64,000 nucleotides of DNA, taken from NCBI GenBank assembly GCA_030323885.1, contig CM059190.1:83258709-83322708 (forward strand), written 5' to 3'. Positions within the stretch are counted from its first letter, which is position 1; each line of letters starts with the position of its first letter. Source of the DNA: Branchipolynoe longqiensis. Lineage: Eukaryota > Annelida > Polychaeta > Phyllodocida > Polynoidae. Both the position numbers and the translations under genes were made by a program. This document shows positions 6,801 through 61,808 of this stretch, piece by piece. A model generated the notes under the pieces. It was not told the origin of the DNA, did not search any database, and saw only the letters and a program-made list of their open reading frames with translations.

Positions 6801-9800
6801 GTGAAAGAAACAACAACAAAATACATAAAGAACAAAAGAAAGAAACAAATAAAGAAAGAAAATATAATAATGAGTCTGTTAGCAAGTATCGAAAACAGAC
6901 TAGGCAGGGGGTTGCACATAGCACACTTAAACTGTCAAAGTCTCACCAGCAAAATTGACTTAATTAAGCTACACATAAAGTATGATAAATTTGATGTATT
7001 AACCTTATCAGAAATGTGCCTCAGAAAAAATCACAAGAAGCAGGCATACAACCTGAAGGGGTATGAACTATTCAGATTAGACTGAAAATCTACAGGAGAG
7101 GATGGAAATGTCAAATGAGGAGGGGGTGTGGCCATATATGTAAATAGCAAGCACTAGGTTATAGAAAACAAACTGAGTGAATACAACACATCAACCGATG
7201 ACATACAAATTATGTGGGTACTAATTCAAAACAGCAAACAAATCAACATAGCGGTAGCCTCAGTATATAGGCCACCAAGGGGTAATGTAAATAAATTTAT
7301 AGACCACCTAGAAGAGGCCATTGAAAATATCACAAGAAACAATAATATAGATGTTTTTATCCTGGGAGATATGAATATAGACTATAGTAAAACTAATAAG
7401 GATCAAGAACAAATGAAATCATTAGTAAAGCAAATGGGCCTACACCAACTGATAGAAGAAAAGACAAGACTGGCAGACACCAGCTCTATTCTAGACCTAA
7501 TTTTGACAAACAGGGTACATATAAAGAAAAAGGGCACTAGACCATGGGGGATAAGTGACCATGAATTAGTCTATGCAACTAGAGAAAAAATCACAGTGAA
7601 GCACAAGATCGAAGTAAAATTAAGTAGGTCCTACAAAGCCTATGATGTCTTTGAATTCACACAGCAGATGCAGGAAACAGATTGGGAAAATGTAATGGAC
7701 TCTAAGGACCCAAATCAGAAATGGGAAAATGTTTTAGGTAGGATTCAAGAATTAATGGACAAAATGTGTCCAATTAAGACAATCAAGATGAGGGACAAGC
7801 AGGACCCATGGATAGGTGAGGAAATAATAGATAGTATCAAATTGAAGAGGAAACTTGGAAAGAAGGCTAGACTCACACATACGATAGATGACATCAACAA
7901 CTACAAAACTGTGAAAAGAAAAACCCTAAGGCTAGTCAGGCAGGCAAAGACCACTTACATTGAAGAACAAGATAATAAATCATGTAATGACTCCAAGAAG
8001 TTCTGGAAAAATGTAGATATGGCATAATCGGGAGATAAGGAGAAAAGCAAAATAGTGCTAACAGATGGAGAAGGGAACACCATATCAAATGAGAGAGCAC
8101 CAGATAGATTAAATAAACACTTCACAGAGATAGGAGCGAAGTTAGCAGAACAATTCAGAGGAAGCTGGGAATACACAGGTGATGCAGTTGAAAATAGTAC
8201 AGATACAGCAAGAGTAAGAGAGAATGAAGTGATTAGACTAGCTAAGAGAATAGATCTAGGAAAGTCATCAGGAATACAAAACCTACAAGCCAGAATAATT
8301 AAAGATGCTATGTTAGCCATACCAAATATTGTATGTGACATAATCAATAATTCATTTGAGATGGGTATTTTTCCCATGGCCTGGAAACAGGATACAGTGG
8401 TACCATCACACAAGGGTGGAGACAAAAGGGACATGGGCAACTACCATCCCATATCACTCCTACCTCTACCAGGCAAGCTGATAGAGAAATTAATGTACAA
8501 ACACATCATGCAACATCTAGATAGTGAGAAAATACTAAATGACAAACAGGGAGGGTTCAGAAAGGGATTCTCCACAACAAAAACTATATCCAATCTAACA
8601 AATGACATACTGAGATGTATGAATGAAGGTGAACAGACAACTGCCACATTCATATATTTTAGCAAGGCATTCGATAACTGAATCAGGACATACTGATAAA
8701 AAGGCTAGAAAGAGTAGGAATAAGAATAAGAACACTAGACTGGATGAGGAATAACATCAGTGAGAGAAGTCAGAGAACAAAAGCAAAATATCAGAAAGTA
8801 TACAGGTAACCTGTGGAGTCCCTCAAGGTTCAGTATTAGGCCCACTCCTCTTCATCATTTACATCAATGATCTGGAGAAGCCCTTAGAGGATATCAAATT
8901 CCAACTATATGCTAATGACACCATGATATATACAACAAGCAAGAGCAGAAAAGAGAACAGAGATAAGCTAAATGAGAAACTAGTAGCTTTAGATAATTGG
9001 TGTAACTCCAACAAGATTTCCATAAACCACAAGAAGTCGAAGGTCCTAGTGTTTGGCAGTGGGAAAATCAACTAATGCAATGAGGAGCCAATAAGTTTGG
9101 GAGGAAAAGTTCTTGATTATCAGACCAACTACAGATATCTAGGGATGAATAATGATACGAAATTAAACTACAATGATAACATGAAAGAAATTATCAAGAA
9201 GGCAAACCACAAAATCTGGATATTAGCGAATACCAGAAAATACCTAACTATAAATATGGCTATTCAAATTTATAAAGGAATGATACTACCATACTTGGAC
9301 TATGGTGATGTAATATATATGGGGGGTAACAAAAATATGTTGGATAAACTACAAAGACTACAAAATAGAGCACTTAAGATATGTCTGAAGGTGGAACATA
9401 GACACCCAACTGATGATCTCCATGGGAAAGCAAGTGTCAACACACTAAATGACTGGAGAAAAGCACATCTCAAAATAGCAGCATTCAGGGAGACAAGGAA
9501 GCCTGGGAGGGTGCAGATAACAAAACAGGCCACAAGAGGTAGTGATGGCCCCAGACTGATAATAAACAGAGCCAAAAACAGATCATATGAGAGGAGTACC
9601 GAGTACGTGAAGGCAAGGGAATGGAATACACTGGGAGTAGAGGAAAGAAGTAAAGGGACAATAGAAACATCATCATGCTGTCGGTCGCGATGCGACAAAG
9701 ACTGCTTTCAATACTTGACTGTTTCTCTCCATTTAGCTCTCTGCTGTGAGAGTGATGTCCATGAGTAGAATAGAAACATATAAAAATGTAATCAAAAGAG

Positions 9801-11284: not shown

Positions 11285-13405
11285 CGCCTCCAGCCCGGTG
11301 TAACGGTATAAAACAACCCGCTGTAAATACTGCCCCTGTAACCAGACCGTCTCTACTGTGTCCAGCCCGGTGTAACGGTATAAAAAAGCCTGCTGTAAAT
11401 ACTGCCCCTGTAACCAGACCGTCTCTCCTGTGTCCAGCCCGGTGTAACGGTATAAATCAACCCGCTGTAAATACTGCCCCTGTAACCGGACCGTCTCCTG
11501 TGTTCAGCCCGGTGTAACGGTATAAAACAGCCCGCTCTAAATACTGCCCCTGTAACCACACCGTCTCCTGTGTTCAGCTTGTTGTAACGGTATAAAACAG
11601 CCCGCTGTAAATACTGTCCCTTGTAACCAGACTTCTTGTGCGTCCAACCCGGTGTAACAGTATATAACAGCCCGCTGTAAATACTGCCAGCTGTAACCAG
11701 ACTGTCTTCTGCGTTCAGCCCGGTGTAGCGGTATAAAACAGCCCGCTGTAAATACTGCCCCAGTCACCAGACAGTCTCCTGCGTTCAGCCCAGTGTAACG
11801 GTATAAAACAGCCCGCTGTAAATACTGCCCCTGTAACCAGACCGTCTCTCCTGTGTCCAGCCCGGTGTAACGGTATAAAACAGCCCGCTGTAAATACTGT
11901 CCCTTGTAACCAGACTTCTTGTGCGTCCAACCCGGTGTAACAGTATATAACAGCCCGCTGTAAATACTGTCAGCTGTAACCAGACTGTCTTCTGCATTCA
12001 GCCCGGTGTAGCGGTATAAAACAACCCGCTGTAAATACTTCACCTGTAACCAGACCACCTCCTGTGTCCAGTGTGGTATGAACTGTATAAAACAGCCCAC
12101 TGTAGATACCGTGTGTGCGTTCAGCCCGGTGTAACAGGATAAAACAGCCCGCTGTAAATACTATCCCTTGTAACCAGACTTCTAGTGCATCCGAGCCGGT
12201 GTAACAGTATAAAACAGCACGGTGTGAATACTGTCCCTGTAACCAGACTGTCTCCTGCGTTCAGCCGGTGTAACGGTATACAACAGCCCACTATAAATAC
12301 TGCCACCTGTACCCAGACCGTCTCCTGCGTTCGGCTCGGTGTAACGGAATAAAGTAGATACTGCCCAAGTCACCAGACAGTCTCCTGCGTTCAGCCCAGT
12401 GTAACGGTATAAAACAGCCCGCTGTAAATACTGCCCCTGTAACCAGACAGTCTCTACTGTGTCCAGCCCGGTGTAACGGTATAAAACAGCCCGCTGTAAA
12501 TACTGCCCCTGTAACCAGACCGTCTCTCCTCTGTCCAGCCCGGTGTAACGGTATAAAACAGCCTGCTGTAAATACTGCCCCTGTAACCAGACAGTCTCTA
12601 CTGTGTCCAGTCCGGTGTAACGGTATAAAACAGCCCGCTGTAAATACTGCCCCTGTAACCAGACCGTCTCTCCTGTGTCCAGCCCGGTGTAATGGTATAA
12701 AACAGCCCGCTGTAAATACTGTCCCTTGTAACCAGACTTCTTGTGCGTCCAACCCGGTGTAACAGTATATAACAGCCCGCTGTAAATACTGTCAGCTGTA
12801 ACCAGACTGTCTTCTGCGTTCAGCCCGGTGTAGCGGTATAAAACAACCCGCTGTGAATACTTCCCCTGTAACCAGACCACCTCCTGTGTCCAGCGTGGTA
12901 TAAACTGTATAAAACAGCCCACTGTAAATACCGTGTGTGCGTTCAGCCCGGTGTAACAAGATAAAACAGCCCGCTGTAAATACTGTCCCTTGTAACCAGA
13001 CTTCTAGTGCGTCCGAGCCGGTGTAACAGTATAAAACAGCATGCTGTGAATACTGTCCCTGTAACCAGACTGTCTCCTGCGTTCAGCCCGGTGTAACGGT
13101 ATACAACAGCCCACTGTAAATAACCAGACCGTCTCCTGCGTTCAGCTCGGTGTAACAGGATAAAACAGCCTGCTGTAAATACTGCCCCTGTACCCAGACC
13201 GTCTCCTGTGATCAGCCCGGTGTAACGGAATAAAACAGCCCACTGTAAATACTGCCCCAGTAACTAGACCGTCTCCTGCGTTCAACCCAGTGTAACGGTA
13301 TAAAACAGCCCGCTGTAAATACTCTCTCTCTAACCTGACTGTCTCCAGCGTTCAGCCAGGTATAACAATATAAAACAGCCCGCTGTGAATACTGCCCCTT
13401 GTACC
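11285..13405. repeat. 72-bp satellite array with higher-order structure
   Basis: About 29 tandem units of ~71-73 bp with core gtgtaacggtataaaacagc, ccgctgtaaatactg and ctgtaaccagaccgtctcc. Successive unit starts at 11297, 11369 and 11441 give the period. Variant units with cagacttcttgtgcgtccaa at 11628, 11911 and 12733 show that a block of several units has been duplicated (offset 822 bp). As 72 is divisible by 3, several minus-strand frames stay open (up to 246 aa, 24-residue repeats). They are open in more than one frame, so they are read as by-products and not as a gene. Confidence 0.9.
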
Positions 13406-15740: not shown

Positions 15741-15779
15741 TCCTGATATGACCGTAGATGTTGCTAGGGCATAAAGTAA
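15741..15779 (+). mobile_element. SINE tail, left half, split by TRIM
   Basis: tcctgatatgaccgtagatg and ttgctagggcataaag are the SINE 3' end. The tail continues at 16283 (gtaacaacaaacaatc), so the 503-bp element between interrupts it. Confidence 0.75.
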
Positions 15780-16282
15780 TGTAGTAGTCTGCACTGACCG
15801 CTCAGGCAAGTAACCAAATAGACAGGTAGGCGTGGGTAGTGTGGTGATATCAGGGAGCCTAGGTGGTGTAATGGTTAGCACACTGGCCTGGTATGCAAAG
15901 AGATGTGGGTTCGAGTCCCACTCTAGGCACAATATTTCCCATTTTCATCACCCCTGTGACACTGGTTGCCATGATCATGATCCTGTACAAGCTATGCACT
16001 GTATGGTTTTTTAACCTACCCTGTGTGTGTATGTGTTAGTGCATTGCCTGTATGTATGTAATTGTAAGCATTAAAAGACTTACAATTCTAGGGGGACAAG
16101 TGTAGTTGTCTGCACTGACCGCTCAGGCAAGTAACCACATAGACATGTACGTGTGGGTAGTGTGGTGATATCAGGGAGCCTAGGTGGTGTAATGGTTAGC
16201 ACACTGGCCCGGTATGCAAAGAGATGTGGGTTCGAGTCCCGCTCTAGGCACAATATTTCCCATTTTCATCACCCCCATGACA
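15780..16282 (+). mobile_element. TRIM-like element with tRNA-like sequence in its LTRs (copy 1)
   Basis: Two direct repeats of exactly 182 bp (15780-15961 and 16101-16282), each TG...CA, flank a 139-bp interior. The 4-bp gtaa stands on both sides (15776-15779 and 16283-16286). The interior starts with c then tggttgccatgatc, a possible primer-binding site, and ends with agggggacaag, a polypurine tract directly before the 3' repeat. Each repeat holds a 73-nt tRNA-like unit. The repeats differ at about nine positions. There is no coding capacity. The ~60-aa frames over the repeats are by-products. A tandem SINE duplication is the alternative, but TG/CA ends, target duplication and purine tract favour an LTR-type element. 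Confidence 0.8.
15857..15929 (+). promoter_or_regulatory. tRNA-like unit with Pol III A and B boxes (5' LTR)
   Basis: gcctagg pairs with tctaggc as a 7-bp acceptor stem with a trailing A. gtgt/acac form the D stem, and gtggg/cccac form the T stem around ttcgagt. A-box tggtgtaatgg (15864) and B-box ggttcgagtcc (15908) match consensus. The D-arm looks like tRNA-Gln. The anticodon stem is badly paired, so this is tRNA-derived and not a working tRNA gene. The same unit is in the 3' repeat at about 16178-16250. Confidence 0.75.
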
Positions 16283-16446
16283 GTAACAACAAACAATCTA
16301 TATTAAATTCTGACCCATCGGTGCCGGTCAGGATGCGATGAGTGCACTCGACGCTGAGAGAAATTGTTTGCATGTGCTTACAGTGCGACAACAAAGAGCT
16401 ACGCCCGTGCTGTACCTACTCCTCCTTCCACGAGCTGAGGACTGGA

Positions 16447-16790
16447 TGGTTGGTTGGTTGTTGGAGTTTTACGTCCTGGCAACATCTAAGGTCATATCAG
16501 GACAGCTACCGACTTGTTGCAGTGTGCACTCATGGTGACTTTATAGTCCTGCCGCACTGGGAAATCAGTTTGCCAGGACCAGGACCCAATATCCCACTCA
16601 GTCACATTATCCTGACACTGAGCTAACCAGTCCTTGCCCTATCCTTTTAATGCCGAGCGCCAGGCTAGGAAGCGACAAGTATCAATTTTATAAGTCATTG
16701 ATTTGACTCGACCGGGGACCGAACTCCCGAACTCCCGATGTCCTGCACGCGAGGCCCACACTCTACTGATTCGCCGACCACGCCCGGGCA
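16447..16790 (-). mobile_element. tRNA-SINE, subfamily B
   Basis: Full-length inverted copy. It opens with ggttggttgttggagtttta (complement of the tail), runs through gactttatagtcctgccgca and ends with ttcgccgaccacgcccggg, the complement of the gggcg..ggccga head. Confidence 0.9.
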
Positions 16791-19045: not shown

Positions 19046-19389
19046 ATTGAAAACAATCTAGAAGAAGAAAAAAAGACATCGTTCTACTATACCCACACAC
19101 AATAGACATTTTTCAGTGAGAATGTTGCACAGTGAGCTGCAGTCCACAACATAAAATATTCCCATTTCAATCAGAGGTCCGCCTTGTAATGGAAATCTGT
19201 TGTTTCGCACAGAAAATGCTGCACAGTAAGCTGTCCCCCACACAATTAGCTATCTTCCACTGCCGTCAGAGGACAAATGTAATTCACAGCTTCACAGTCT
19301 GACTTTGTTGGTAAAAGATTTATCTACACAAAGCTGATGATGAAAAGAGTATGCAGCGTCGTATTCCTTGCAATTTTCTGTCCCGATTC

Positions 19390-20336
19390 TGAAGTCAAAT
19401 AATACAAAGACACACAGTCATAAATAACATTGTGTCATGTTGATTGCAATTTGCTGCTCAGATTATGTAGTCACATAATACAAAGACACACAGTTATAAA
19501 TAACATTGCGTTATGTTGACTGCAATTTGCTGTCTAGATTCTGTAGTCACATAATACAAAGACACACAGTCATAAATAACATTGTGTCATGTTGATTACA
19601 ATTTGCTGTCTAGATTCTATGGTCACATAATACAAAGACACACAGTCATAAATAACATTGTGTCATGTTGATTACAATTTGCTGTCTAGATTCTATAGTC
19701 ACATAATACAAAGACACACAGTCATAAATAACATTGTGTCTAATGTACATTGAGTTGCAATTTGCTGCTGTTCTAGATTCTATAGTCACATAATACAAAG
19801 ACACACAGTCATAAATAACATTGTGTTATGTTGATTACAATTTGCTGTCTAGATTCTATGGTCACATAATACAAAGACACACAGTCATAAATAACATTGT
19901 GTCATGTTGATTACAATTTGCTGTCTAGATTCTATGGTCACATAATACAAAGACACACAGTCATAAATAACATTGTGTCATGTTGATTGCAATTTGCTGT
20001 CTAGATTCTATGTAGTCACATAATACAAAGACACACAGTTATAAATAACATTGCGTTATGTTGACTGCAATTTGCTGTCTAGATTCTGTAGTCACATAAT
20101 ACAAAGACACACAGTCATAAATAACATTGTGTCATGTTGATTACAATTTGCTGTCTAGATTCTATAGTCACATAATACAAAGACACACAGTCATAAATAA
20201 CATTGTGTCATGTTGATTACAATTTGCTGTCTAGATTCTATGGTCACATAATACAAAGACACAGTCATAGAAACCGTAGGGTCATGTTACTTGCAATCTG
20301 CTGTTCAGATTCTTTAGTCTCTATCACAAAGACACA
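19390..20336. repeat. 76-bp satellite array, part 1
   Basis: About 12 units of ~76 bp with core tttgctgtctagattctat, gtcacataatacaaagacac and acagtcataaataacattgt. Unit starts near 19440 and 19516 give the period. The array resumes at 20743 and at 21608 after two insertions. Confidence 0.9.
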
Positions 20337-22170: not shown

Positions 22171-22516
22171 TTTGTTTTTTGTTTGTTGTTGTTTTACATC
22201 CTAGCAACATCTAAGGTCATATCAGGATGGGTACTGACTTGTGACAGTGCGCACTCATGGCGACTTTGTAGTGCTGCCCCACTAGAAGACCAGGCCGCCA
22301 GCACCATGACCTGATATCCCACTCAATCACATTATCCTGACACTGAGCCAACCAGCCCTTGCCCTATCCTAATAATGCCGAGCGGCAGGCTAGGAAGCAA
22401 CAAGTATCAATTTTTAAGTCATTGGTTTGACTTGACCAGGGTTCGAACCCGCGACCCCACGATCTACCAACACGGGAGACAGACGATCTAACTCATTCGG
22501 CCATCCCGTCTGGTCC
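22171..22516 (-). mobile_element. tRNA-SINE, subfamily A
   Basis: Full inverted copy: tttgtttgttgttgttttac tail complement, body, then ctaactcattcggccatccc and gtctggtcc head complement. Confidence 0.9.
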
Positions 22517-23575: not shown

Positions 23576-23703
23576 ATTAATCTAATTCACTTACCCCAAA
23601 ATTGACTTATTCATAGAGGGAAGGAAAAACAGCAATAAAGGGCCAACAAAAACAACAATAACAACAACGACAACAACAACAACGACAACTACCAAAAGTA
23701 GTC

Positions 23704-25005
23704 ATGGGGCTGTCGGACTTGGACCAGTCCTACTTGGAACTGCTCCACCAGGCGATTAACTCGATCGACAGCAACGACACCATCGACTTCCGGAAGCCGT
23801 ACATCAAGGTGTCGCTGCGCTATGTGTACCCGCTCTTTATCTTCCTGCACGCATGCGTCATGCTGTTCGGGCTGTTCGGCAACCTGGCCATGTTGGTGGT
23901 GGTGGTGCGCGGCCACCTATACGACAACCCGCTCTTCTTCTTCATGGCCAACCTTGCGCTGTCCGACATGATCAAGAGCGCCATTGTCCTGCCTATAACG
24001 CTCGCCAACCTCCTTCTGCAGAACTGGGTCTTCGGCAGCTTCCTCTGCTTCTTCCTTCCTATGATGCACTCCTTCCCTATCCACGCCACTATGATGACAT
24101 ACCTGATGATCGCTGTCGACCGGTACCGCTCCATCGTGCACCCGATGAAGAGCCGCCTACCGGCCGGGTTGTGCACTATCGCCGTCTGGGTGGTCGCTGT
24201 CTGTATCGTCCTGCCCTATGCCGTCTACGTCAAGTACATCGACCTGGAGCAGATCATCGGGCCCACTTTCGCAGGACTCGGCATCTGCTTCGTGAACCTT
24301 GAGCGCAACGTTGAAGAGTATATCCGGGCAATCTTCGTCATCCTATACTGCCTTCCTCTCACCACCATCGCCTTTCTCTATGTCAAGGTCTCCGCAGAGC
24401 TGAAGGGCTTCACCGATGGCGGCTCGGGCGGTTCGGATGGCTTCGGTGGTGGTGGCGGTGAGGACATGGTGCAGAACACGAGTGAGGCTTCGTACCACAC
24501 GCGGATTACATGGTCGATGAGCGAGAGTGACAATCGCATCGATCCAGAAGGCGCGAGCAGTGAATCGACAGCCGGCCGACACTACCTGGAGCATCGCTAC
24601 AGCAATGACCAAGAGGAAGAGATCGACTTGCGGAAAGAGAAGCGGACACAGAAGTACATGATCACCATGGTGACGCTGTTCGCCATGTGCTGGTGTCCCA
24701 TCAACATCCTGATTCTTGTCACACACTTCGTCTTTGAGAATGACAACAACTCGGGTCACTTCGACATCACCTATTTGACCTTCACCTTCTTTGGCTACAT
24801 GACGACCTGCATCAACCCAGTGCTCTTCGCCTCCTGGCACATGTCCGACAGCACCAGGGACCGACTGCGAGGCTACTTCCGGTTCTCGAACCGCCGCCAG
24901 AGCACGCAGCACGTCGTTGCTAGGCGGGCAGACGACATTTACGCGGTTCGGCAGCTGACTCTGGCGCCGCCCGAGAACCACGAGAACCACAAGAGTTATG
25001 TATAA
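23704..25005 (+). CDS. Rhodopsin-class (class A) G protein-coupled receptor, intronless, peptide-type
   Basis: 433 codons. Seven hydrophobic segments are visible. TM1 is at about residues 40-64 with GNLAMLVVVV. TM2 has NLALSDMI (Asn-Leu-Ala-x-Ser-Asp). TM3 ends in the DRYRSIVHP form of the DRY motif near residue 140. TM4 is WVVAVCIVLPYAVYV. TM5 has FVILYCLPLTTIAFLYV. TM6 has FAMCWCPINILILVTH (CWxP). TM7 has TTCINPVLFA (NPxxF). Cysteines at the TM3 start (FGSFLCF) and in the second extracellular loop (GLGICF) could form the usual disulphide. The third intracellular loop is long, with a Gly/Ser run (GGSGGSDGFGGGGGEDM). One N-terminal glycosylation site, NDT, is present. The start follows an aacaacaac-rich leader, and catgg gives a fair Kozak G. 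The ligand is not predictable from what I see. Codon third positions are GC-rich, unlike the surroundings. Confidence 0.9.
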   Translation: MGLSDLDQSYLELLHQAINSIDSNDTIDFRKPYIKVSLRYVYPLFIFLHACVMLFGLFGNLAMLVVVVRGHLYDNPLFFFMANLALSDMIKSAIVLPITLANLLLQNWVFGSFLCFFLPMMHSFPIHATMMTYLMIAVDRYRSIVHPMKSRLPAGLCTIAVWVVAVCIVLPYAVYVKYIDLEQIIGPTFAGLGICFVNLERNVEEYIRAIFVILYCLPLTTIAFLYVKVSAELKGFTDGGSGGSDGFGGGGGEDMVQNTSEASYHTRITWSMSESDNRIDPEGASSESTAGRHYLEHRYSNDQEEEIDLRKEKRTQKYMITMVTLFAMCWCPINILILVTHFVFENDNNSGHFDITYLTFTFFGYMTTCINPVLFASWHMSDSTRDRLRGYFRFSNRRQSTQHVVARRADDIYAVRQLTLAPPENHENHKSYV

Positions 25006-29883: not shown

Positions 29884-30222
29884 GACCAGACGGGATGGCC
29901 AAATGAGTTAGAGCGTCCATCTCCCGTGTTGGTAGATCATGGGGTCGTGGCTTCGAACCCTGGTCAAGTCAAACCAATGACTTAAAAATGTATACTTGTC
30001 GCTTCCTAGCCTGGCGCTCGGCATTATTAGGATAGGATAAGGACTGGTTGGCTCAGTGTCAGGATAATGTGACTGAGTGGGATATCAGGTCATGGGTTTC
30101 GGTGGCCTGGTTTCCCAGTGGAACAGCACTATGAAGTCACCATGAGTGCGCACTGTCACAAGTCGGTACCCATCCTGATATGACCTTAGATGGTGGTAGG
30201 ACATAAAACAACAACAAACAAT
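29884..30222 (+). mobile_element. tRNA-SINE, subfamily A
   Basis: accagacgggatggccaaat head, cttcgaaccctggtcaagtc, body, acaacaacaaacaatc tail. LINE sequence follows at once. Confidence 0.9.
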
Positions 30223-30229
30223 CTACAAC

Positions 30230-32025: not shown

Positions 32026-32189
32026 CTCGCCCAAACCTCATTTGTGTGATTAAAATGACGATCACCAACTTTTTATTTTTATTTGGCCTTACTTCGAATT
32101 GATCCTAAATATATATGAGACACTCATGGACCCATAAAGCATTTATTGCAGTTTGATGTTCTTGTCACGTGATGCCAATTTTCTCGAAA

Positions 32190-32552
32190 ATGGCTAAGCT
32201 GCATCTAGGTTCAGAATGTGGGTGTATGTGGACCAAAATTTCTAAGCTGCATCTATGTTCAGAATGTGGGTGTATGTGCACCAAAATGGCTAAGCTGCAT
32301 CTATGTTCAGAATGTGGGTCTATGTGCACCAAAATGGCTAAGCTGCATCTATGTTCAGAATGTGGGTGTATGTGCACCAAAATGGCTAAGCTGCATCTAT
32401 GTTCAGAATGTGGGTGTATGTGCACCAAAATGGCTAAGCTGCATCTATGTTCAGAATGTGGGTGTATGTGCACCACAATGTCTAAGCTGCATCTATGTTC
32501 AGAATGTGGGTGTATGTGCACCAAATTGGCTAGCTTAGACATTGTGGTGCAC
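32190..32552. repeat. 48-bp minisatellite, 7 units, inverted end
   Basis: Unit atggctaagctgcatctatg, ttcagaatgtgggtgtatgt, gcaccaaa. The period of 48 keeps frames open on both strands (143, 106 and 129 aa). At the right end agcttagacattgtggtgca (32533-32552) is the complement of tgcaccacaatgtctaagct in the last unit, so the array closes with a hairpin. Not interpreted as a gene. Confidence 0.85.
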
Positions 32553-35417: not shown

Positions 35418-35555
35418 GGGAATTTATAGTGTTGCCCCACTGGGAGACTAAGCCGCCGGCACCACGATGTAATATCCCACTCACTCACATTATTCTGACA
35501 CTGAGTTAACCAGTCCTTCTTCTATCCTATTAAAGCTGAGGGTCAGGCTAGATAG
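35418..35555 (-). mobile_element. tRNA-SINE B, 3' half, split by TRIM
   Basis: tttatagtgttgccccactg through gtcaggctagatag. The rest of the same SINE lies at 36071-36172 (cgacaagtattaattgtata to gattcggccaccgcg). Joining the two halves across one copy of atag restores the usual SINE order. Confidence 0.85.
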
Positions 35556-36070
35556 TGTCATGGGGGTGGTGAAAATGGGAAATATTGCGCCTAGAGCGGG
35601 ACTCGAACCCACATCTCTTTGCATTCTGGGCCAGTGTGCTAAACATTACACCACCTAGGCTCCCTGATATCAACTCACTACCCATGCCTACCTGTCTATG
35701 CGGCTCCTTGCCTGAGAGGTGAGTGCAGACTACTACACTCGTCCCCCTGGAATTGCAAGTCTTTTAAATGATCATTTAATGCTTACAATTACATAAATAC
35801 AGGCAATGCACTTACACATACATAAACAGGGTAGGTTCAACAACAATACCGCATGTATCTTGTACAGGATCATGGTCACGGCAACCAGTGTCATGGGGGT
35901 GATGAAAATGGGAAATATTGTGCCTAGAGCGGGACTCGAATCCACATCTCTTTGCATTCCGGGCCAGTGTGCTAACCATTACACCACCTAGGCTCCCTGA
36001 TATCAACACACTACCCACGCCTACCTGTCTATGTGGATACTTGCCTGAGAGGTCAGTGCAGACTACGACA
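35556..36070 (-). mobile_element. TRIM-like element with tRNA-like LTRs (copy 2)
   Basis: Minus-strand copy of the element at 15780. The 5' repeat is 35889-36070 and the 3' repeat is 35556-35737, each 182 bp. The interior is 151 bp. The 4-bp atag stands on both sides (35552-35555, 36071-36074). Read on the minus strand, the interior starts with ctggttgcc and ends with agggggacgag before the 3' repeat. Each repeat keeps A-box tggtgtaatg and B-box gattcgagtcc or ggttcgagtcc. The interior carries a 12-bp difference from copy 1 (aatgatcattta), so the two copies are separate insertions and not a segmental duplication. Confidence 0.82.
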
Positions 36071-36172
36071 ATAGCGACAAGTATTAATTGTATAAGTCAT
36101 TGGTTTGACTCGACCGAGAATCGAACTCTCGATCTCCCGCACGATTACCGATTCGGCCACCGCGTTCGGTCG
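36071..36172 (-). mobile_element. tRNA-SINE B, 5' half, split by TRIM
   Basis: Continuation of the SINE at 35418-35555: aagtcattggtttgactcga, then ctctcgatctcccgcacgat and the inverted head. Confidence 0.85.
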
Positions 36173-36516: not shown

Positions 36517-36650
36517 TGTGATGTATGTAACCGCCCGACAAACCCGAAACCGAAACCCACAGTTGGCCGGCGGCACGGGCTGCGCGTGCCGAATAAAGCA
36601 TTATGAAACCAGACGTCGTTGAGTAGAGTCGGTTCTTAATCGCCATCACA
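36517..36650 (+). repeat. Gypsy element 5' LTR
   Basis: 134 bp, tgtgatgtatgtaaccgccc to aatcgccatcaca. It contains gaataaagc (poly-A signal type). The 5-bp aatgt precedes it. Directly after it is tggtgtcag (36651), matching the 3' end of animal tRNA-Leu as a primer-binding site. Confidence 0.92.
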
Positions 36651-36678
36651 TGGTGTCAGACGCGAACCTGCAAACACT

Positions 36679-37494
36679 ATGGCACTGTCAGGGCTGAAGC
36701 CCCTAGGACATCTAAATCTAGATAGGAATCTAGCGACCAGTTGGAGGAGTTGGTATCATGCATATAACATATATGCTACGGCCGCTGGAGTGCTAACAAG
36801 AAGTGAAAAGGTACAGTGTTGTGTATTTCTACATGTGGCGGGTCCAGAAGCTCAGAAGATACATCAATCCATGACGTTCAGTGCAGGCGACACGGATAAA
36901 ATCGCACCCTTGAGAGACGCGTTCAGGAAGTACTGCGAGGGGAAAACCAACATAACAGTAACAAGATACAACTTCAACTCCTATAACCAAGGTCAGGAGT
37001 CAATGGACGCCTACATCAGGGAAGTACGGCACAAAGTACGGCAGTGTCAATACGGGGATCTAGAGGATTCAATGATGTCCGATAGACTGGTGAGCGGTGT
37101 GAAATGTAACACACTGCGGGACAGGCTACTGCAAACGCCAAAGTTGACGTTAGAACTCTGCGAAGACATGTGTCGGATGAGCGAACACAAAGGAAAGCAG
37201 TTAACAAGAAGCAGCGATACAGAATACGACATGGACTTCGTACGGCAATACGACGTGAAAAAACAGCCAACAAGACAGTATCAAAATCCTCAACAGCAGC
37301 ATCTCAACACAGCCAGAACAGACCGAGAGACAACCGGCGCGAGTGCAGGAGTGCGCACCGAGTGCTCGTGGTGCGGGTATTCGCACAAAAACGACAGAGA
37401 CTCGTGCCCAGCGAAAGGCAAGGCATGCGTAATATGCAAGAAGATAGGGCACTTTGCGCGCGTGTGTCGCGATAAAACGACAACAATAAATTAA
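36679..37494 (+). CDS. gag: Gypsy retrotransposon Gag
   Basis: 271 aa. The N-terminal two thirds is a capsid-like region (LNLDRNLATSWRSWYHAYNI, DAFRKYCEGKTNITVTRYNF, QGQESMDAYIREVRHKVRQC). The C-terminus has two zinc-knuckle-like groups, CSWCGYSHKNDRDSC and CVICKKIGHFARVC. It is in the same reading frame as Pol, from which a TAA at 37492 separates it, so either stop read-through or a mutation divides the polyprotein. It packages element RNA in cytoplasmic particles (family knowledge). Confidence 0.88.
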   Translation: MALSGLKPLGHLNLDRNLATSWRSWYHAYNIYATAAGVLTRSEKVQCCVFLHVAGPEAQKIHQSMTFSAGDTDKIAPLRDAFRKYCEGKTNITVTRYNFNSYNQGQESMDAYIREVRHKVRQCQYGDLEDSMMSDRLVSGVKCNTLRDRLLQTPKLTLELCEDMCRMSEHKGKQLTRSSDTEYDMDFVRQYDVKKQPTRQYQNPQQQHLNTARTDRETTGASAGVRTECSWCGYSHKNDRDSCPAKGKACVICKKIGHFARVCRDKTTTIN

Positions 37495-40400
37495 ATAGTA
37501 TTAGACGAGCATGACAGCACAGATGTAGACGACTTTGTGCGACAGGACGACGACTTGTTCATCGGAGCGATGTCCACGGATGGACAGGATTCAACCAACA
37601 TGTGGTTTGCAGACATCACGATAGGGCAACAGCACATCAACTTCAAACTGGACACAGGCTCTGAAGCTAATATCATCCCGATCGGCGTCTTCACGAAAAT
37701 AAAAGGCGCTCAACTCACAAACCAGCGATGCCGATTGGTCACATACTCAGGACAGAAGATTGTGCCCACGGGAGAAACATCGCTACAGATCAGAGGACAA
37801 TGGTTACGATTCCAGGTGGTCGAAAAAGGATGTGCGATTCTGGGAAAGAAGGCGTGTGTCCGGTTGCGGATCCTTTCCCGGATTGATGTGGTAGGTACAC
37901 AAGACGAGGCTAACGGCTGCCAAGCGCAACAAATGGTAAAAACATTTAAAGATGTATTCACTGGACTAGGCACGATCAAAGTCGATGCAAAAATACATGT
38001 TGACGAGAAATTCGAACCTGTAATAGACCCCCCCAGACGAATACCGCATGCCATAGAAAATAAAGTAAGGGGGGAACTGGACAGAATGATTGTATTGGGG
38101 GTGATTGTACAAGAAACGGGACCGACACCGTGGGTCAATTCGATTACAATAGTAAAAAAAGGTGACAAGATCAGAGTATGCCTAGACCCAACAAAATTGA
38201 ACAAGGCCATAAAAAGGGGACCGTACCCTACAAGAACAGTCGAAGAGGTAATATCAAAATTAGAAGGGGCCAAATACTTCTCAGTAATAGACGCAAAGAG
38301 TGGCTACTGGCAGATACAATTAGACACCAACAGCTCAAAGTTATGCACATTCAACACTCCCTTGGTCGGGTATAGATACACGAGACTGCCGTTTGGCATA
38401 AAAACGGCAGGGGACATATTCATTCATGAAATGAACAAGATACTAGAAGGCTTAAAGGGTGTCAATGTAATAACAGATGATATTTTAGTGTACGGTAAGA
38501 CTGTAAACGAACACAATGAAAATCTCAGAGCTGTTCTTGAACGGGCCAGAGAAGTAAACCTGAGACTAAATCCCGACAAATCAACCATATGCAAAACAAG
38601 CGTAGACTACGTAGGTCATGTAATATCGGGCCATGGTATTAAACCAAACGAAGAAAGAGTACAAGCCATTAACGACATGCCAACGCCGACAAGTAAACAA
38701 GCTGTACAATGATTCCTGGGAATGGTAGCGTACGTAGGAAAGTTCCTACCTAATCTAGCAGAAATGACAAAACCACTAAGAATTCTAACAAACAAAGAAA
38801 CTGCATGGCACTGGCAAGCAGAGCAAGAAAAAGCATTCAATAAGTTAAAACACATGATAACGCATGCGCCAGTACTCAGGTTCTATGATGTATCAAAAAC
38901 AATAACCCTACAGGTAGATGCATCGAAATCGGGGTTAGGAGCTGCACTGCTCCAAGAAGGGCGCCCGATCGCAATGGCGTCAAAAGGTTTAGACGATACG
39001 CAAACCAGCTATGCTGTCATAGAAAAAGAACTATTGGCCATCTGCTTTGGATGTAAAAAATTCCACGAGTACATTTTCGGCAAAAAGGTATGCATGGAAA
39101 CTGATCACAAGCCGTTAGTATCTATTGTAAGCAAACCATTGCATCAATTGTCTGCAAGAATGCAACGCATGAGAATGCGTTTACAAAACTATGACCTAGA
39201 ACTTGTACATATAAAAGGAACTGAAATGTTTGTTGCAGATGCGCTGTCACGAGACTACAGCGACACAACAGGGCCGGAACAACTATTTGACAAAGAAATA
39301 AGCATAGCAGCTATAGAGGTGATGCAAGAGACATTAACAGACATTGCAAATGCAACACAAACAGACACGGTTCTAAAAGAGGTAACACAATTGGTAGAGA
39401 ACGGATGGGACAATGACAAAAAGCGCATACCGAAATGTGCAACACCCTACCACGCGTTCAGGCATGAAATAACGATATATGACGGTATGTTACTAAAAGG
39501 AAACAGAATCATAATACCAAAACAAATGCAAAATAAAGTTTTAGAAACACTGCACAAGACACACCAAGGCATAATAAAAAGCAAGAGACTAGCACGGGAA
39601 CATGTATTCTGGCCGGGGATGCAGATGCAACTGGAAGACAGAGTAGAAAGGTGTACGACATGCCAACAATACAGAAATAAACTACACAAAGAGCCAATGA
39701 AATCCCACGAAATAACATGCAGGCCATTCCACAAAGTAGGGGTAGACTTATTCCAGGTAGATGGAAAGGACTACATGTTGCTAGAAGATTACTTCTCAAA
39801 ATTCCCAGAGGTAGTAGAACTAACAAATACCTCAAGCGAGGCAATAATATCACAATTAAAACAGATATTTGGTAGGAACGGCATCCCATCAATAATAGTC
39901 TTGAACAACGGACCACAATTCTCAAGTAGGGAATACAAAAACTTCGCCGAAGAATATGGGTTTACAACAACCTTTTCTAGCCCCATGCTCCCACAAAGCA
40001 ACGGGCAAGTAGAGCGCCACGTACAGACAATAGAAAACATGATCAAAAAGGCACGAGATGAAAAGAAAGACTTCAACCTGTTTCTACTGAACTATAGAAA
40101 CACACCGTTACCCGAATTAGAAGCGTCACCCGCACAACTCTTAATGAGCCGTAGGTTAAGGTCTAAATTACCGACAATACCAAAACAACTAAAACCGCAA
40201 GTAAAAATAATTACAAAAGAACAGATAGCAAACATTCAGAGCAAACAAAAGGAAAATTTTGACCGACACGCAGGCAAACAACACAGACAAATAAACACAG
40301 GCCAACATGTCAGATATGTTACATGCAAAGGAAAATGGGAGAAGGGTGTAGTAACAAAAACAAGCAATAACAACGGGAGGGAATATGATATAAGAAACAC

Positions 40401-40596
40401 AAACGACAAAGTGTTAAAACGCAATCGAAAGCACATATTCCCAACGAAGCAAAACCCTGAATACAACCAAGCCCAAACTGCAACATCCGTAAACGCAAAA
40501 CAGAATCTAACGCAGGGCCGCAACAATGGCCAAATAATCTATATAACAAGATATGGCCGAACAAGCAAACCCGTAGATAGATTTGGTCACCAATAA
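37495..40596 (+). pseudogene. pol: Gypsy retrotransposon Pol (protease, RT, RNase H, integrase), broken
   Basis: The frame continues from Gag. Protease: LDTGSEANIIP near 37650. Reverse transcriptase: VCLDPTKLNKAIKR, FSVIDAKSGYWQIQLD, RLPFGIKTAGDIF and VITDDILVYG. TGA at 38710 cuts the frame in the RT connection (AVQ-stop-FLGMVAYVGKFLP). RNase H: LQVDASKSGLGAALLQEG, YAVIEKELLAI, TDHKPLV, ADALSRDY. Integrase: H-x3-H and CTTC of the zinc finger, VDLFQVDGKDYMLLEDYFSK, then LNNGPQF where the family has a catalytic Asp (SDNGPQF), and PQSNGQVERHVQT with the catalytic Glu. The stops and the lost Asp mean this copy cannot be active. No envelope frame follows; 40597-41210 is non-coding. Confidence 0.92.
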
Positions 40597-41210
40597 AGAA
40601 CGATAGATAAGGCAGAACACCAATAAAACTGACAAATGCGGATAATGGACGAAGAACTTAAAGAGTATCACATACAATTAACGCATGTATCGTACTCAAG
40701 ATAACGGTACACGCTTGAGGGCCAAAGTGCAGGAAACAAGAAAGGGTCACAAACTGTTCAAGCAAACTTGTATTAGCATGAAATAAAATTGTAGCATTAC
40801 ATGTCGCATGAAAACGCATATAGTCTTAGATGAGTACTAAGTACAGGACGCAGGATCGAACAGGGGAATTCAATCATGCGCATGTGTAAAGGTATACATA
40901 TAGATATCTGTAGCAAAATGAGTCGAATGCGACACATAGAACTTATCTACTATATAACTAAAGTAAAATAAAATAAAATAAAAGGGGAGATGGGATCGTC
41001 ATGCAAGGCACAGTAAGCCACAAATGCGAACGAATTACCCATAAGACAAAAACCCTAAAAGCAAGCACAAGGTTGGGGTCGGCACAGCGGAGTGCGGTAA
41101 ATGTAAACGGATGAACGGCACAGCTGAGGTGCCACCACTATAAAAGCATGCTTGGCAATATTAAGTCAAATCTGCACAGGTACAATGTTGTTTGATTATA
41201 AAAAGGGAGA
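40597..41210 (+). other. Gypsy 3' untranslated region and polypurine tract
   Basis: No open frame of note. The last bases aaaaagggaga (41200-41210) directly before the 3' LTR are the polypurine tract. Confidence 0.85.
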
Positions 41211-41344
41211 TGTAATGTATGTAACCGCCCGACAAACCCGAAACCGAAACCCACATTTGGCCGGCGGCACGGGCTGCGCGTGCCGAATAAAGCATTATGA
41301 AACCAGATGTCGTTGAGTAGAGTCGGTTCTTAATCGCCATAACA
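41211..41344 (+). repeat. Gypsy element 3' LTR
   Basis: 134 bp, identical in length to the 5' LTR, with four differences (about 3%). Followed by aatgt (41345-41349), the same 5-mer that precedes the 5' LTR, so the element boundaries are certain. Confidence 0.93.
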
Positions 41345-43825: not shown

Positions 43826-45256
43826 CTAGCCGGAAATATCCTTCAAATAATCCAGGAAGCTGGCAATATTCGGTAGGTCGTTTTCCCCCATAGGTCGCTG
43901 CCAGTCTTGCCTGACCTGCTCACCCTCCTCGACCCCAAAGCCCGCAGCGACATCTGCGGGAGAAGGCGGCCGGAAGCAGCTCGCCCCCGCCGCCGTCCAC
44001 GCCTGCGCACTGCAGCTCTGGTACAGACAGGGCGTCCACCAGGACGCGGCCTTGACCTCTGCGACCGCTTCCTGTCGGGACCCGCCGGGCCGGGCGTGGG
44101 CAGGGTGCCGGGAGACTGCGGCTGTGGCTGCTGGCCGGCCCTGCTCGCTGCCCGCGCAGGTTTCCGACGTTCGGCTTACGTTCAACGCTGTGTGGTCACA
44201 CGTGGTGGTGACGTCACGAGGGTCACCCTCTAACAAGGACCTGTAATTAGCGGTGTTGTCGCCGAGCGGTGGATTTATTAGGTCAGACCAAAATTGCGGA
44301 GAATGATCACTAAGAAATTGTCGCTTTTGCTGGTGTTGTTGTTGTTGTTGTTGGCCAAATTGAGACTGGTGTTGGTGTTGGTGTTGTTGTTGTTGTTGTT
44401 GTTGTTGTTGATATTCAGAGTGGTGAGATAATGCACCAGCGTTCAATCGCAGCTCCTTGCAACCATGGTGATTCCACACACCCACGTCTGAGCATGAATT
44501 TGGCGGGAATGAAGCTTCGCACTCTCCATTGTCGTCTGCCGACCATTGCTGCATATCAGGCTGACACCACTGCCTTTGAGTTTGAGCATGCGCAGCGGGA
44601 AAGGTGTCGCGAGAACAGGGGTAAGTAGCATCACCTCCCCGGCAGGACGCCGGGCCCCAGCCGGGCGGCCTCGACCCGGGAACCGGCGACGGCTCCGTGA
44701 ACGCCGTGATCTGACCCCGGAAGAAAAGCGTAGTCGGGGCAGCTGCTTCACCGGAAACTCCAACACCATTCACCCGCATCAGGTAGTGTCGTGGGGAAGG
44801 CACAGGTGGCGCCACCTGATCGGGGGGATCTTTGCAGTTCCCGGCGAATAATCGCCCCGGCTGAGGTCGCCCAGACGCGGCCCAGGCCCAGTGAGAGTCC
44901 GCGGTCTTAACGGTGGCGCCACCGTGCGGGCCGCAACCCACTGGGTCCGGCGGCGGGGTGTTCGGTTGTGACGTCACGGAGGTGGCGGTGAAGAGGAGGC
45001 GCGGGCGTTTTGCCGGGCTTGTGACGTCAGCGTCGTCCTCCTGCTGGTCCCTAGCGTTGTAACGGTGTGGGAGGCTGGTGGTGGGGAACACTGGCGAGTG
45101 GCACTCGTTGGCTGAGTGCCAGGTGGACGGGCATGACGTGGCAGTTGTGTGCGCACTGACTCTGACGTCATTAGTGACGTATCCTGACGATGCAGTTGCA
45201 TGGGGACAGACGCTTCCCGAAATGCATTTCGGGCAGTTGTTGGCAGGGAAACTCGG
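43826..45256 (-). CDS. bHLH-PAS transcription factor, last exon (polyQ C-terminal region)
   Basis: Terminal coding exon of the minus-strand gene. An acceptor ttttcatttcag precedes 45256. The frame is then open for 476 codons to a TAG/TAA-type stop at 43826. The sequence is low-complexity: a basic SPAKRPR segment that could aid nuclear import, Pro/Gly-rich stretches, Gln runs with His and Ser (44339-44409), and an acidic-hydrophobic C-terminus (ENDLPNIASFLDYLKDISG) of the kind used for transactivation. GC-rich and high in CpG, unlike its flanks. Linkage to the PAS exons rests on strand, phase and the known layout of such factors (PAS-B followed by a long Gln-rich tail). Four perfect tgacgtca palindromes lie in it. 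Confidence 0.7.
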   Translation of the reverse strand, partial: PSFPANNCPKCISGSVCPHATASSGYVTNDVRVSAHTTATSCPSTWHSANECHSPVFPTTSLPHRYNARDQQEDDADVTSPAKRPRLLFTATSVTSQPNTPPPDPVGCGPHGGATVKTADSHWAWAASGRPQPGRLFAGNCKDPPDQVAPPVPSPRHYLMRVNGVGVSGEAAAPTTLFFRGQITAFTEPSPVPGSRPPGWGPASCRGGDATYPCSRDTFPAAHAQTQRQWCQPDMQQWSADDNGECEASFPPNSCSDVGVWNHHGCKELRLNAGALSHHSEYQQQQQQQQQHQHQHQSQFGQQQQQQHQQKRQFLSDHSPQFWSDLINPPLGDNTANYRSLLEGDPRDVTTTCDHTALNVSRTSETCAGSEQGRPAATAAVSRHPAHARPGGSRQEAVAEVKAASWWTPCLYQSCSAQAWTAAGASCFRPPSPADVAAGFGVEEGEQVRQDWQRPMGENDLPNIASFLDYLKDISG

Positions 45257-45299
45257 CTGAAATGAAAAGGCTTTTAAAAAAAATCATATTCTGTTTATT

Positions 45300-48249: not shown

Positions 48250-48590
48250 GTTTGTTTGTTTTGTTGTTGTTTTTGCCGTTAGCAACATCTAAGGTCATAT
48301 GAAGACGGGTGCTGACTTGTGACAGTGCACACTCATTGCGACTTTATAGTGCTGCCCCACTGGGAAATCATGTTGCTGGCACCATGACCTGATATCCCAC
48401 CCAGTCACATTATCCAGACACTGAGCTAACCAGTCCTTGCCCTATCCTATTAATGTCGAGTGCCAGGCTAGGAAGTGTCACGTATCAATTATACAAGTCA
48501 TTGATATGACTCAATCGGGAACCGAACTCCCGATCTCCCGCACGCGAGGCCCGCGCTCTACCGATTCAGCCACTGCGCCCGCTGTGTTCT
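48250..48590 (-). mobile_element. tRNA-SINE, subfamily B
   Basis: Inverted copy from tttgttttgttgttgttttt and cgttagcaacatctaaggtc to tctaccgattcagccactgc. The tail is A-type while the head is B-type, so it may be a hybrid. Confidence 0.85.
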
Positions 48591-56469: not shown

Positions 56470-56576
56470 AGGCTTTGTGGCAGGAACTGAACACACCCAG
56501 GTCCTCAGGGTGCACGAGGGCGTAGAAAGACTGACCATCCAACTCGTCGACGTCATAGCCTATGACGTCACACGTC
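56470..56576 (-). CDS. bHLH-PAS transcription factor, PAS-B middle exon
   Basis: 107 bp between acceptor cctctgtttcag and donor gtgagtaac. It reads TCDVIGYDVDELDGQSFYAL, VHPEDLGVFSSCHKA. The GY-x-x-x-EL-x-G-x-x-x-Y-x-x-x-HPED signature is the central PAS helix region as in HIF, SIM and NPAS factors. It starts with the third base of the codon begun by AA at the end of the exon at 58151 and leaves one T for the exon at 50393, so both joins keep frame. Its first ~46 bases and the acceptor are repeated upstream as an 80-bp minisatellite. Confidence 0.85.
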
Positions 56577-57028
56577 CTGAAACAGAGGTGGGAGTGTTCT
56601 ATTTGACAGACTGATCATCCAACTCATCGACGTCATAGGATATGAAGGCACACGTCCTGAAAGAGAGATGGGCCTGTTCTATGTGTCAGATTGACCATCC
56701 AACTCGTCGACGTCATAGGATATGACGTCACACGTCCTGAAAGAGAGATGGGCCTGTTCTATGTGTCAGATTGACCCTCCAACTCATCGACATCATAGGA
56801 TATGACGTCACACGTCCTGAAAGAGAGATGGGCATGTTCTATGTGTCAGATTGACCATCCAACTCGTCGACGTCATAGCCTATGACGTCACACATCCTGA
56901 AAGAGAAATGGGTATGTTCTATGTGACAGACTGACCATCCAACTCATCGACTTCACAGCCTATGACGTCACATGTCCAGAAAAAGAGGTGGGTATGTTCT
57001 ATGTGTCAGACTGACCATCCAACTCACT
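56531..57028. repeat. 80-bp minisatellite derived from an exon-intron boundary
   Basis: Six exact-period units (starts at 56531, 56611, 56691, 56771, 56851, 56931) and a partial one at 57011. Each holds tgaccatccaactcgtcgac, tatgacgtcacacgtcctga and agagatgggcctgttctat. In gene sense each is a polypyrimidine tract, an AG acceptor and the start of the PAS exon. Only the unit nearest the exon runs on into full exon sequence. Confidence 0.92.
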
Positions 57029-57184: not shown

Positions 57185-58030
57185 CTAATAGAAAATGTCA
57201 CACTCACAGCTCACACTCACAGCTCACTCTCACAGCTCACACTCACAGCTCACACTCACAGCTCACACTTACGACTCACATTCACAGCTCAAACTCACGA
57301 CTCACACTCACAGCTCACACTCACAGCTCACACTCACAGCTCACACTCACAGCTTACACTCACAGCTCACACTCACAGCCCACACTCACAGCTCACACTC
57401 ACGACTCACACTCACAGCTCACCCTCACGACTCACACCCACAGCCCACACTCACAGCTCACACTCACAGCTCACACTCACAGCTCACACTCACAGCTCAC
57501 ACTCACAGCTCATACTCACAGCTCACACTCACAGCCCACACTCACAGCCCACACTCACGACTCACACTCACAGCTCACACTCACAGCTCACACTCACAGC
57601 ACACACTCACAGCTCACACTAACAGCACACACTCACAGCACACACTCACAGCTCACACTCACAGCTCACACTCACAGCACACACTCACAGCTCACAGCTC
57701 ACACTCACAGCTCACACTCACGACTCACACTCACAGCCCACACTCACAGCTCACACACACAGCTCACACTCACAGGTCACACTCACATGTCACACTCACG
57801 ACTCACACTCACAGCTCACACTCACAGCTCACAGCTCACACTCACAGCTCACACTCACAGCTCACACTCACAGCCCACACTCACAGCTCACACTCACAGC
57901 TCACACTCACAGCTCACTCTCACGACTCACACTCACAGCCCACACTCACAGCTCACACTCACACTCACAGCTTACACTCACAGCTCACACTCACGACTCA
58001 CACTCACGACTCACACTCACAGCCCACACA
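57185..58030. repeat. 13-bp satellite (ctcacactcacag)n
   Basis: About 65 units of agctcacactcac with variants cgactcac and agcccac. A 13-bp period visits all three frames, which is why three long plus-strand frames (295, 288 and 149 aa, H/S/T/L/Q) stay open together. This is not a protein. Confidence 0.93.
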
Positions 58031-61465: not shown

Positions 61466-61494
61466 AGCACCCACTAAACCACCGGTGTAGATTG

Positions 61495-61808
61495 CTTGTT
61501 GGAATTGTATGTCCTGGCAACATCTAAGATCATATCAGGACGGGTACTGAATTATGACACTCATGGTGACTTTATAGTGCTGCCCCACCGAGAGACCAGG
61601 TCGCCAATACCACGACCCGATATCCCAGTCACATTATCCTGACACTGAAATAACCAGTCCTTTCCCTATCCTATTAATGCTGAACGCTAAGCTAGGAAGT
61701 GACAAGTATCAATTTTGCATGTCATTGGTTTGACTCGACCGTGAATCGAACTCCCGATCTCCCGCACGAGAAGCCTGTGCTCTACCAATTCGTCCATCGC
61801 TTCCGGAC
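61495..61808 (-). mobile_element. tRNA-SINE, subfamily B
   Basis: ttggaattgtatgtcctggc, tgactttatagtgctgcccc, then cccgatctcccgcacgagaa, ttcgtccatcgcttccgg. Inverted and nearly complete. Confidence 0.87.

Follow-up and report, generated by a model that had tools for sequence, protein, structure and literature searches.

Two complete copies of a short element bounded by long terminal repeats (LTRs) are present in the 64,000-nucleotide stretch of Branchipolynoe longqiensis DNA analyzed here (the window). With a probability that we put at roughly 0.87, the element is best explained as a TRIM of the Helenus type, an LTR retrotransposon without coding capacity that has as its promoter a tRNA-derived unit with A and B boxes in each LTR. 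A first-pass annotation of one copy had already proposed a tRNA-based TRIM of animals, with a unit in each repeat; this remains the best reading, and both copies agree with it in structure and target-site duplication. The coordinates are collected in Table 1.

Copy 1 (15780-16282) measures 503 bp. Its LTRs, each of 182 nt, align without gaps at 95% identity, the nine mismatches comprising five transitions and four transversions (K2P 0.051). They begin with TGTAG and end with GACA (TG...CA), and GTAA directly abuts the element on either side. The 139-nt internal region opens with C-TGGTTGCC and closes with AGGGGGACAAG, a purine tract containing one C. There is no credible open reading frame in this copy, the longest ATG-begun frame being 48 amino acids. 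The first-pass annotation, which had described 182-bp terminal direct repeats with TG...CA ends, a 4-bp gtaa duplication, a candidate primer-binding site separated by one base from the 5′ repeat, a purine tract abutting the 3′ repeat, and an element without an ORF, was thus borne out on all of these points.

The LTR was also compared by BLAST with the 64-kb window, accepting E values up to 1e-3. At this sensitivity the search returned four LTRs, which make up two complete copies, with no solo LTRs and no lone units. The second copy (36070..35556, minus strand), absent from the first-pass annotation, spans 515 bp, has LTRs of 182 and 182 nt, and is flanked by a CTAT duplication. Its 151-nt internal region is related to that of copy 1, and the longest ATG-begun frame in the copy is 61 amino acids. 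The 12 extra nucleotides sit in a small hairpin directly before the purine tract, and in both copies the flanking arms remain paired when the fold is predicted. Distances of 0.051 and 0.069 (K2P) within the elements, and of 0.063 between the two 5′ LTRs, indicate that the insertions are not recent.

Table 1. Features of the two TRIM copies, in window coordinates
Feature	Position	Strand	Remark
Target-site duplication GTAA, left of copy 1	15776..15779	+	read directly
Copy 1 5′ LTR, 182 nt	15780..15961	+	repeat pair
tRNA-like unit, copy 1 5′ LTR, A and B boxes	15857..15929	+	RF00005, 55.7 bits; anticodon stem 3/5
TTTT, candidate weak Pol III terminator	15942..15945	+	12 nt past unit; putative terminator function
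Internal region of copy 1, without credible ORF	15962..16100	+	139 nt
Candidate primer-binding site TGGTTGCCATGAT, copy 1	15963..15975	+	10/13 to tRNA-His 3′ complement, one bulged base; weak
TTTTTT, copy 1 only	16007..16012	+	would probably stop Pol III early
Purine tract AGGGGGACAAG, adjoins copy 1 3′ LTR	16090..16100	+	one C in tract
Copy 1 3′ LTR, 182 nt	16101..16282	+	repeat pair
tRNA-like unit, copy 1 3′ LTR	16178..16250	+	RF00005, 48.5 bits
TTTT, candidate 3′ end of element RNA	16263..16266	+	putative function
Target-site duplication GTAA, right of copy 1	16283..16286	+	read directly
Copy 2 target-site duplication CTAT, 3′ flank	35552..35555	-	read directly
Copy 2 3′ LTR, 182 nt	35556..35737	-	BLAST match
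tRNA-like unit, copy 2 3′ LTR	35588..35660	-	RF00005, 43.3 bits
Purine tract AGGGGGACGAG, copy 2	35738..35748	-	one C in tract
Copy 2 internal region, 151 nt, without TTTTTT	35738..35888	-	12 nt longer than copy 1
Candidate primer-binding site TGGTTGCCGTGAC, copy 2	35875..35887	-	12/13 to tRNA-His 3′ complement, one bulged base (extra T)
Copy 2 5′ LTR, 182 nt	35889..36070	-	BLAST match
tRNA-like unit, copy 2 5′ LTR	35921..35993	-	RF00005, 42.5 bits
Copy 2 target-site duplication CTAT, 5′ flank	36071..36074	-	read directly

The element is an LTR element and not a tandem SINE. At the composition of the window two random 4-mers agree with a probability of 0.0045, and the chance of two such matches at set borders is about 2e-5. 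For an empty-site check, the flanks of each copy were joined, minus one duplication, and matched to other members of the repeat family into which it is inserted. Each copy interrupts a dispersed repeat family, other members of which continue across the insertion point, the case for copy 1 being thin. The joined flanks of copy 2 find their best match at 16737-16534 (204 nt, 80.9%, gapless), which spans about 69 nt to the left and 135 nt to the right of the site; many further members match, and four chosen members agree, without gaps, at 32, 28, 29, and 31 of the 40 positions that surround the site. For copy 1 the best match, at 30171-30225, is 49/55 and gapless, and over a dozen further members match, but to the right of the site these matches extend only 10-14 nt; lying near the end of a short repeat piece, copy 1 provides the weaker of the two unfilled sites. 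Relative to the unfilled paralogous sites, the insertions amount to 503+4 and 515+4 nt. The LTR columns at which the four sequences divide two and two (21, 65, and 113) all group by element, none by position and none crosswise, which is understandable if both LTRs were copied from one template; the columns are only three, and they are unanimous.

The interrupted family is a dispersed repeat of approximately 300 bp, represented by 31 BLAST pieces (e.g., 16440-16790, 22179-22499, 48253-48567, and 61492-61764) that make up 9.0% of the window, and both TRIM copies landed in its sequence. On the minus strand, a sequence resembling a B box near 36119-36129 suggests that this repeat is perhaps a tRNA-headed SINE.

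The Rfam tRNA model (RF00005) scores above its gathering threshold of 29 bits in all four LTRs and is covered in full by the copy 1 units, where the covariance-model check of the 73-nt unit called for by the first-pass annotation gave 55.7 and 48.5 bits. The window's four gathering matches are all to tRNA, none being to a 5S family. The 73-nt fold with a 7-bp acceptor stem, D stem, and T stem was recovered in the copy 1 units with 7/7, 4/4, and 5/5 pairs, respectively; over the four units the acceptor (7/7) and D (4/4) stems are complete throughout, and the T stem has 5/5 pairs in three units and 4/5 in the fourth. The anticodon stem, which lay outside the earlier claims, has 3/5 pairs in every unit. 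The anticodon positions read GGT, GGT, GGA, and AGA, so that no isotype has been kept. ARAGORN reports Thr(GGT) in both copy 1 units and Ser(AGA) in one copy 2 unit, and all three of its tRNA calls in the window fall in the two TRIM copies. A functional tRNA gene was rejected on the strength of the anticodon stem (3/5 in 4/4 units) and the anticodon, which is not kept; to judge from its sequence, the unit is a promoter-like tRNA derivative and not a tRNA gene.

The good A and B boxes ascribed to the repeats were found as an A-box..B-box pattern in 4/4 LTRs, compared with 40 of approximately 20,000 random 182-bp stretches from either strand of the rest of the window; the pattern is a simple one, written after the units had been seen, and the random stretches overlap. 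Copy 2 carries one box change per LTR, GATTC in one B box and ATGTT in one A box. The unit is not clearly more conserved than its surroundings, with 7/73 variable columns versus 17/109 in the LTR outside it (Fisher p 0.27).

The primer comparison covered human tRNA-His, tRNA-Lys, and tRNA-Gly together with the element's own unit, the letters of the human tRNA-His 3′ end being those given in a primer table (PMC12217144). The copy 2 candidate, TGGTTGCCGTGAC, starts one base from the LTR, and its score of 12/13 is unique among the 2112 TGG sites of the window; that of copy 1 (10/13) is equaled by 49 of the 2112. The bulged base was allowed for after the primer site had been seen, and the control TGG sites were scored alike. 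Priming by the element's own tRNA unit was rejected, as its 3′ complement reaches 9/13 in both copies, below the 10 and 12 obtained with tRNA-His. On these matches tRNA-His is a good guess for the primer, and it is among the primers of some bivalve Helenus families (PMC10886601). The purine tract at the 3′ LTR of copy 2, AGGGGGACGAG, resembles that of copy 1 in holding one C.

In the transcription model that we favor, Pol III would initiate immediately upstream of the tRNA-like unit of the 5′ LTR, pass the TTTT of that LTR, and end at the matching TTTT of the 3′ LTR. All four LTRs have the tetranucleotide at position 163, 12 nt beyond the unit, and neither TATAA nor AATAAA is present on the element strand in any of them. 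The TTTT of the 5′ LTR would have to be read through, which a weak terminator may allow, and should reduce the full-length transcript. Copy 1 has an internal TTTTTT that is absent from copy 2, and is thus probably a poor template. The element RNA would be about 420-430 nt long, with an R of about 96 nt at both ends that holds the tRNA-like unit, a U3 of about 70 nt, and a U5 of 16 nt; these lengths are arithmetic (RNA of 417 or 429 nt) from an assumed start at LTR position 71. The minus strand would be primed by a host tRNA, probably tRNA-His, the R repeat would permit strand transfer, and the plus strand would be primed from the purine tract. Capsid, reverse transcriptase, and an integrase with a 4-bp stagger would be supplied by a Gypsy-type element, and the tRNA unit would act as a promoter rather than as a working tRNA. 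The remaining steps would follow the general scheme of LTR retrotransposition, as outlined in PMC10886601.

No autonomous partner was found in the window. The one Gypsy-type LTR retrotransposon seen there (36517-41344, plus strand), in which ORF 37495-38712 matches a Pfam reverse transcriptase domain, has very short LTRs of 134 nt that are 97% alike. It was rejected as the partner on account of its LTR length, its duplication of 5 bp (AATGT, as judged by eye), and its different primer site, which begins TGGTGTCAG and which we take to be that of tRNA-Leu.

Other explanations were weighed against this one. A tRNA-derived SINE, present as a chance head-to-tail pair and moved by a LINE, would account for a tRNA-like unit bearing A and B boxes, and the other short dispersed repeat family, with its 9.0% of the window, may itself be tRNA-headed. 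Both copies, however, are built alike from two repeats with precise borders and are flanked by 4-bp duplications (2/2), 77 nt of repeat precede the unit, which in a SINE would stand at the 5′ end, the primer-site candidate and the purine tract stand in the places proper to an LTR element, and no A-rich tail is seen. A dimer moreover predicts that left repeats resemble left repeats, whereas the LTR columns, only three in number, group by element. We consider such an origin very improbable, and the tandem SINE was rejected on the grounds of the LTR borders, the duplications, the empty sites, and the grouping of the LTR columns; tandem SINE monomers without a fixed duplication, the case that the first-pass annotation had set against its own reading, are found at neither of the two window copies. 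Its suggestion that the element blurs the line between SINEs and TRIMs does not extend to mobilization, since the element has LTR-type borders and duplication, and its primer-site candidate and purine tract are placed as in LTR retrotransposons. A segmental duplication involving no mobile element is scarcely credible: two similar copies do lie 20 kb apart within the window, but they are in opposite orientation, with different flanks and different 4-bp duplications, at different places in the host repeat, and unfilled paralogous sites exist. It too was rejected.

More serious, though still unlikely, is a Pol II-driven TRIM whose tRNA unit would be carried along as the remnant of a SINE insertion into an ancestral LTR. 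The lack of significant excess conservation of the unit and the box changes in the copy 2 LTRs are in keeping with it, as is the ATTAAA that each internal region has at position 109, a possible poly(A) signal, though one outside the LTR. On the other side stand the boxes and fold in 4/4 LTRs, the conservation of the boxes across Helenus families (PMC10886601), and the 4/4 LTRs that have neither TATAA nor AATAAA, with which TATA-less Pol II promoters remain compatible. Within the favored reading of a Helenus-type TRIM with a tRNA-derived promoter, we tentatively raise a more specific version, which we consider less probable than not: a Helenus lineage of annelids that may have arisen independently, with a tRNA mimic that would itself set the ends of the R region, so that strand transfer would proceed through the tRNA-like fold. 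The 5′ end of R would then be the Pol III start, and its 3′ end either the TTTT or a product of RNase P/RNase Z processing.

The window also carries a gene for a rhodopsin-family receptor of neuropeptide type in one open frame (23692-25005, plus strand; 7tm_1, E 5.7e-44). A first tree of 45 rows, consisting of the window gene and 44 chosen from 120 listed among the 131 relatives found, placed it with two ENA proteins, at 98/95 in a set of 12 that includes Capitella. A second tree of 24 rows, from which Lingula, Elysia, and 19 further rows were left out, joined the window gene to Capitella at 98/97, Capitella forming a long branch and the annelid Owenia falling outside. Placement with 15 molluscs was rejected (p-AU 0.0069), the values for placement with Lineus and Owenia being 0.021 and 0.012; the constraint groups were chosen after the first tree, and one gene is concerned. 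An annelid host is thus likely rather than certain on this gene. For a glutamine-rich ORF (43826-45283, minus strand) two relatives were found, which do not help to place the phylum; one of them and the receptor's best relative sit on contigs of equal length (1,341,046), a hint of kept linkage in a related genome. LINE-like pieces lie at 7158-9768 (plus strand), with an endonuclease domain (PF14529), and at 62113-63761 (minus strand), the latter judged from its ORF text, the scanned part (62534-63046) having matched no Pfam family. Minisatellites with periods near 70, 76, 48, 80, and 13 bp occur at 11289-13397, 19368-20336, 32187-32532, 56528-57026, and 57198-58029, among 16 array rows.

A tRNA-based animal TRIM is not new: Helenus was named by Kojima in 2024 and is recorded in fungi, plants, and six animal phyla (PMC10886601). 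The comparison with Cassandra made by the first-pass annotation had likewise been drawn there (PMC10886601). Helenus is defined as TRIMs with tRNA-derived sequence in the LTR, similarity to a published family not being required (PMC10886601). By this definition the window element is a Helenus, assigned by its structure: it has tRNA in 4/4 LTRs, lengths of 503 and 515 bp (the seed screen took <1000 bp), 4-bp duplications at 2/2 copies, and a purine tract. It shares with published Helenus a purine tract, the 4-bp duplications seen in animals, and a total length within 311-1263 bp; its candidate primer site would be comparable, tRNA-His being among the bivalve primers, and seven bivalve families are readable as tRNA-Thr (PMC10886601). 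For animal Helenus, 4-bp duplications and Gypsy partners have precedent (PMC10886601). Experimental proof of a functional Pol III promoter in Helenus is, according to Kojima, still lacking (PMC10886601).

Cassandra of plants is similarly a non-coding LTR element with a small-RNA Pol III unit in both LTRs; its unit is 5S rRNA, whereas those of the window are all tRNA (four gathering matches), and 18 bp are described as repeated at its RNA ends (PMC10886601), against the approximately 96 nt proposed here. Ajax of nemerteans is also a TRIM with a Pol III-type unit in the LTR, but the unit is 5S-derived and the duplications are 5-bp (PMC10886601). The biv-TRIM of bivalves (PMC6934838), compared by its description, is an animal TRIM of similar size that differs in having repeats of 202-218 bp and an internal region of 77-80 bp; its abstract and first Results part report no tRNA unit in the repeats (PMC6934838). 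In Kojima's main text the word "terminator" appears once, in connection with Cassandra (PMC10886601). A 25-base exact pattern gave 0 and 0 matches in IMG/VR and GTDB contigs, where an animal element is hardly expected.

The probable annelid host would set the window element apart from published Helenus. The animals of Kojima's Table 1 are Ctenophora, Chordata, Mollusca, Brachiopoda, Nemertea, and Arthropoda (PMC10886601), Annelida being missing, and the main text contains no word beginning with "annelid." This absence may reflect the search, since genomes related to known seeds were the ones examined (PMC10886601). Among the papers listed on annelids and TRIMs or tRNA, titles and abstract openings revealed no tRNA-bearing annelid TRIM, and in the part consulted of an annelid transposon paper (PMC8556966) TRIMs are mentioned once, in the background. 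Among publications since 2024 on Helenus or TRIMp3, by title, only Kojima 2024 and a meeting report concern the element. What is new is limited to the host phylum, probably one not recorded before, and the explicit layout of the R region.

For genome annotation, these data are a caution that tRNA gene predictors call such TRIM units tRNA genes. TRIMs with a putative Pol III promoter are extended to probably one more animal phylum, and two well-bounded insertions are provided, one with a strong and one with a thin unfilled paralogous site. They also offer a concrete layout for how a Helenus-type element would make a transposable RNA.
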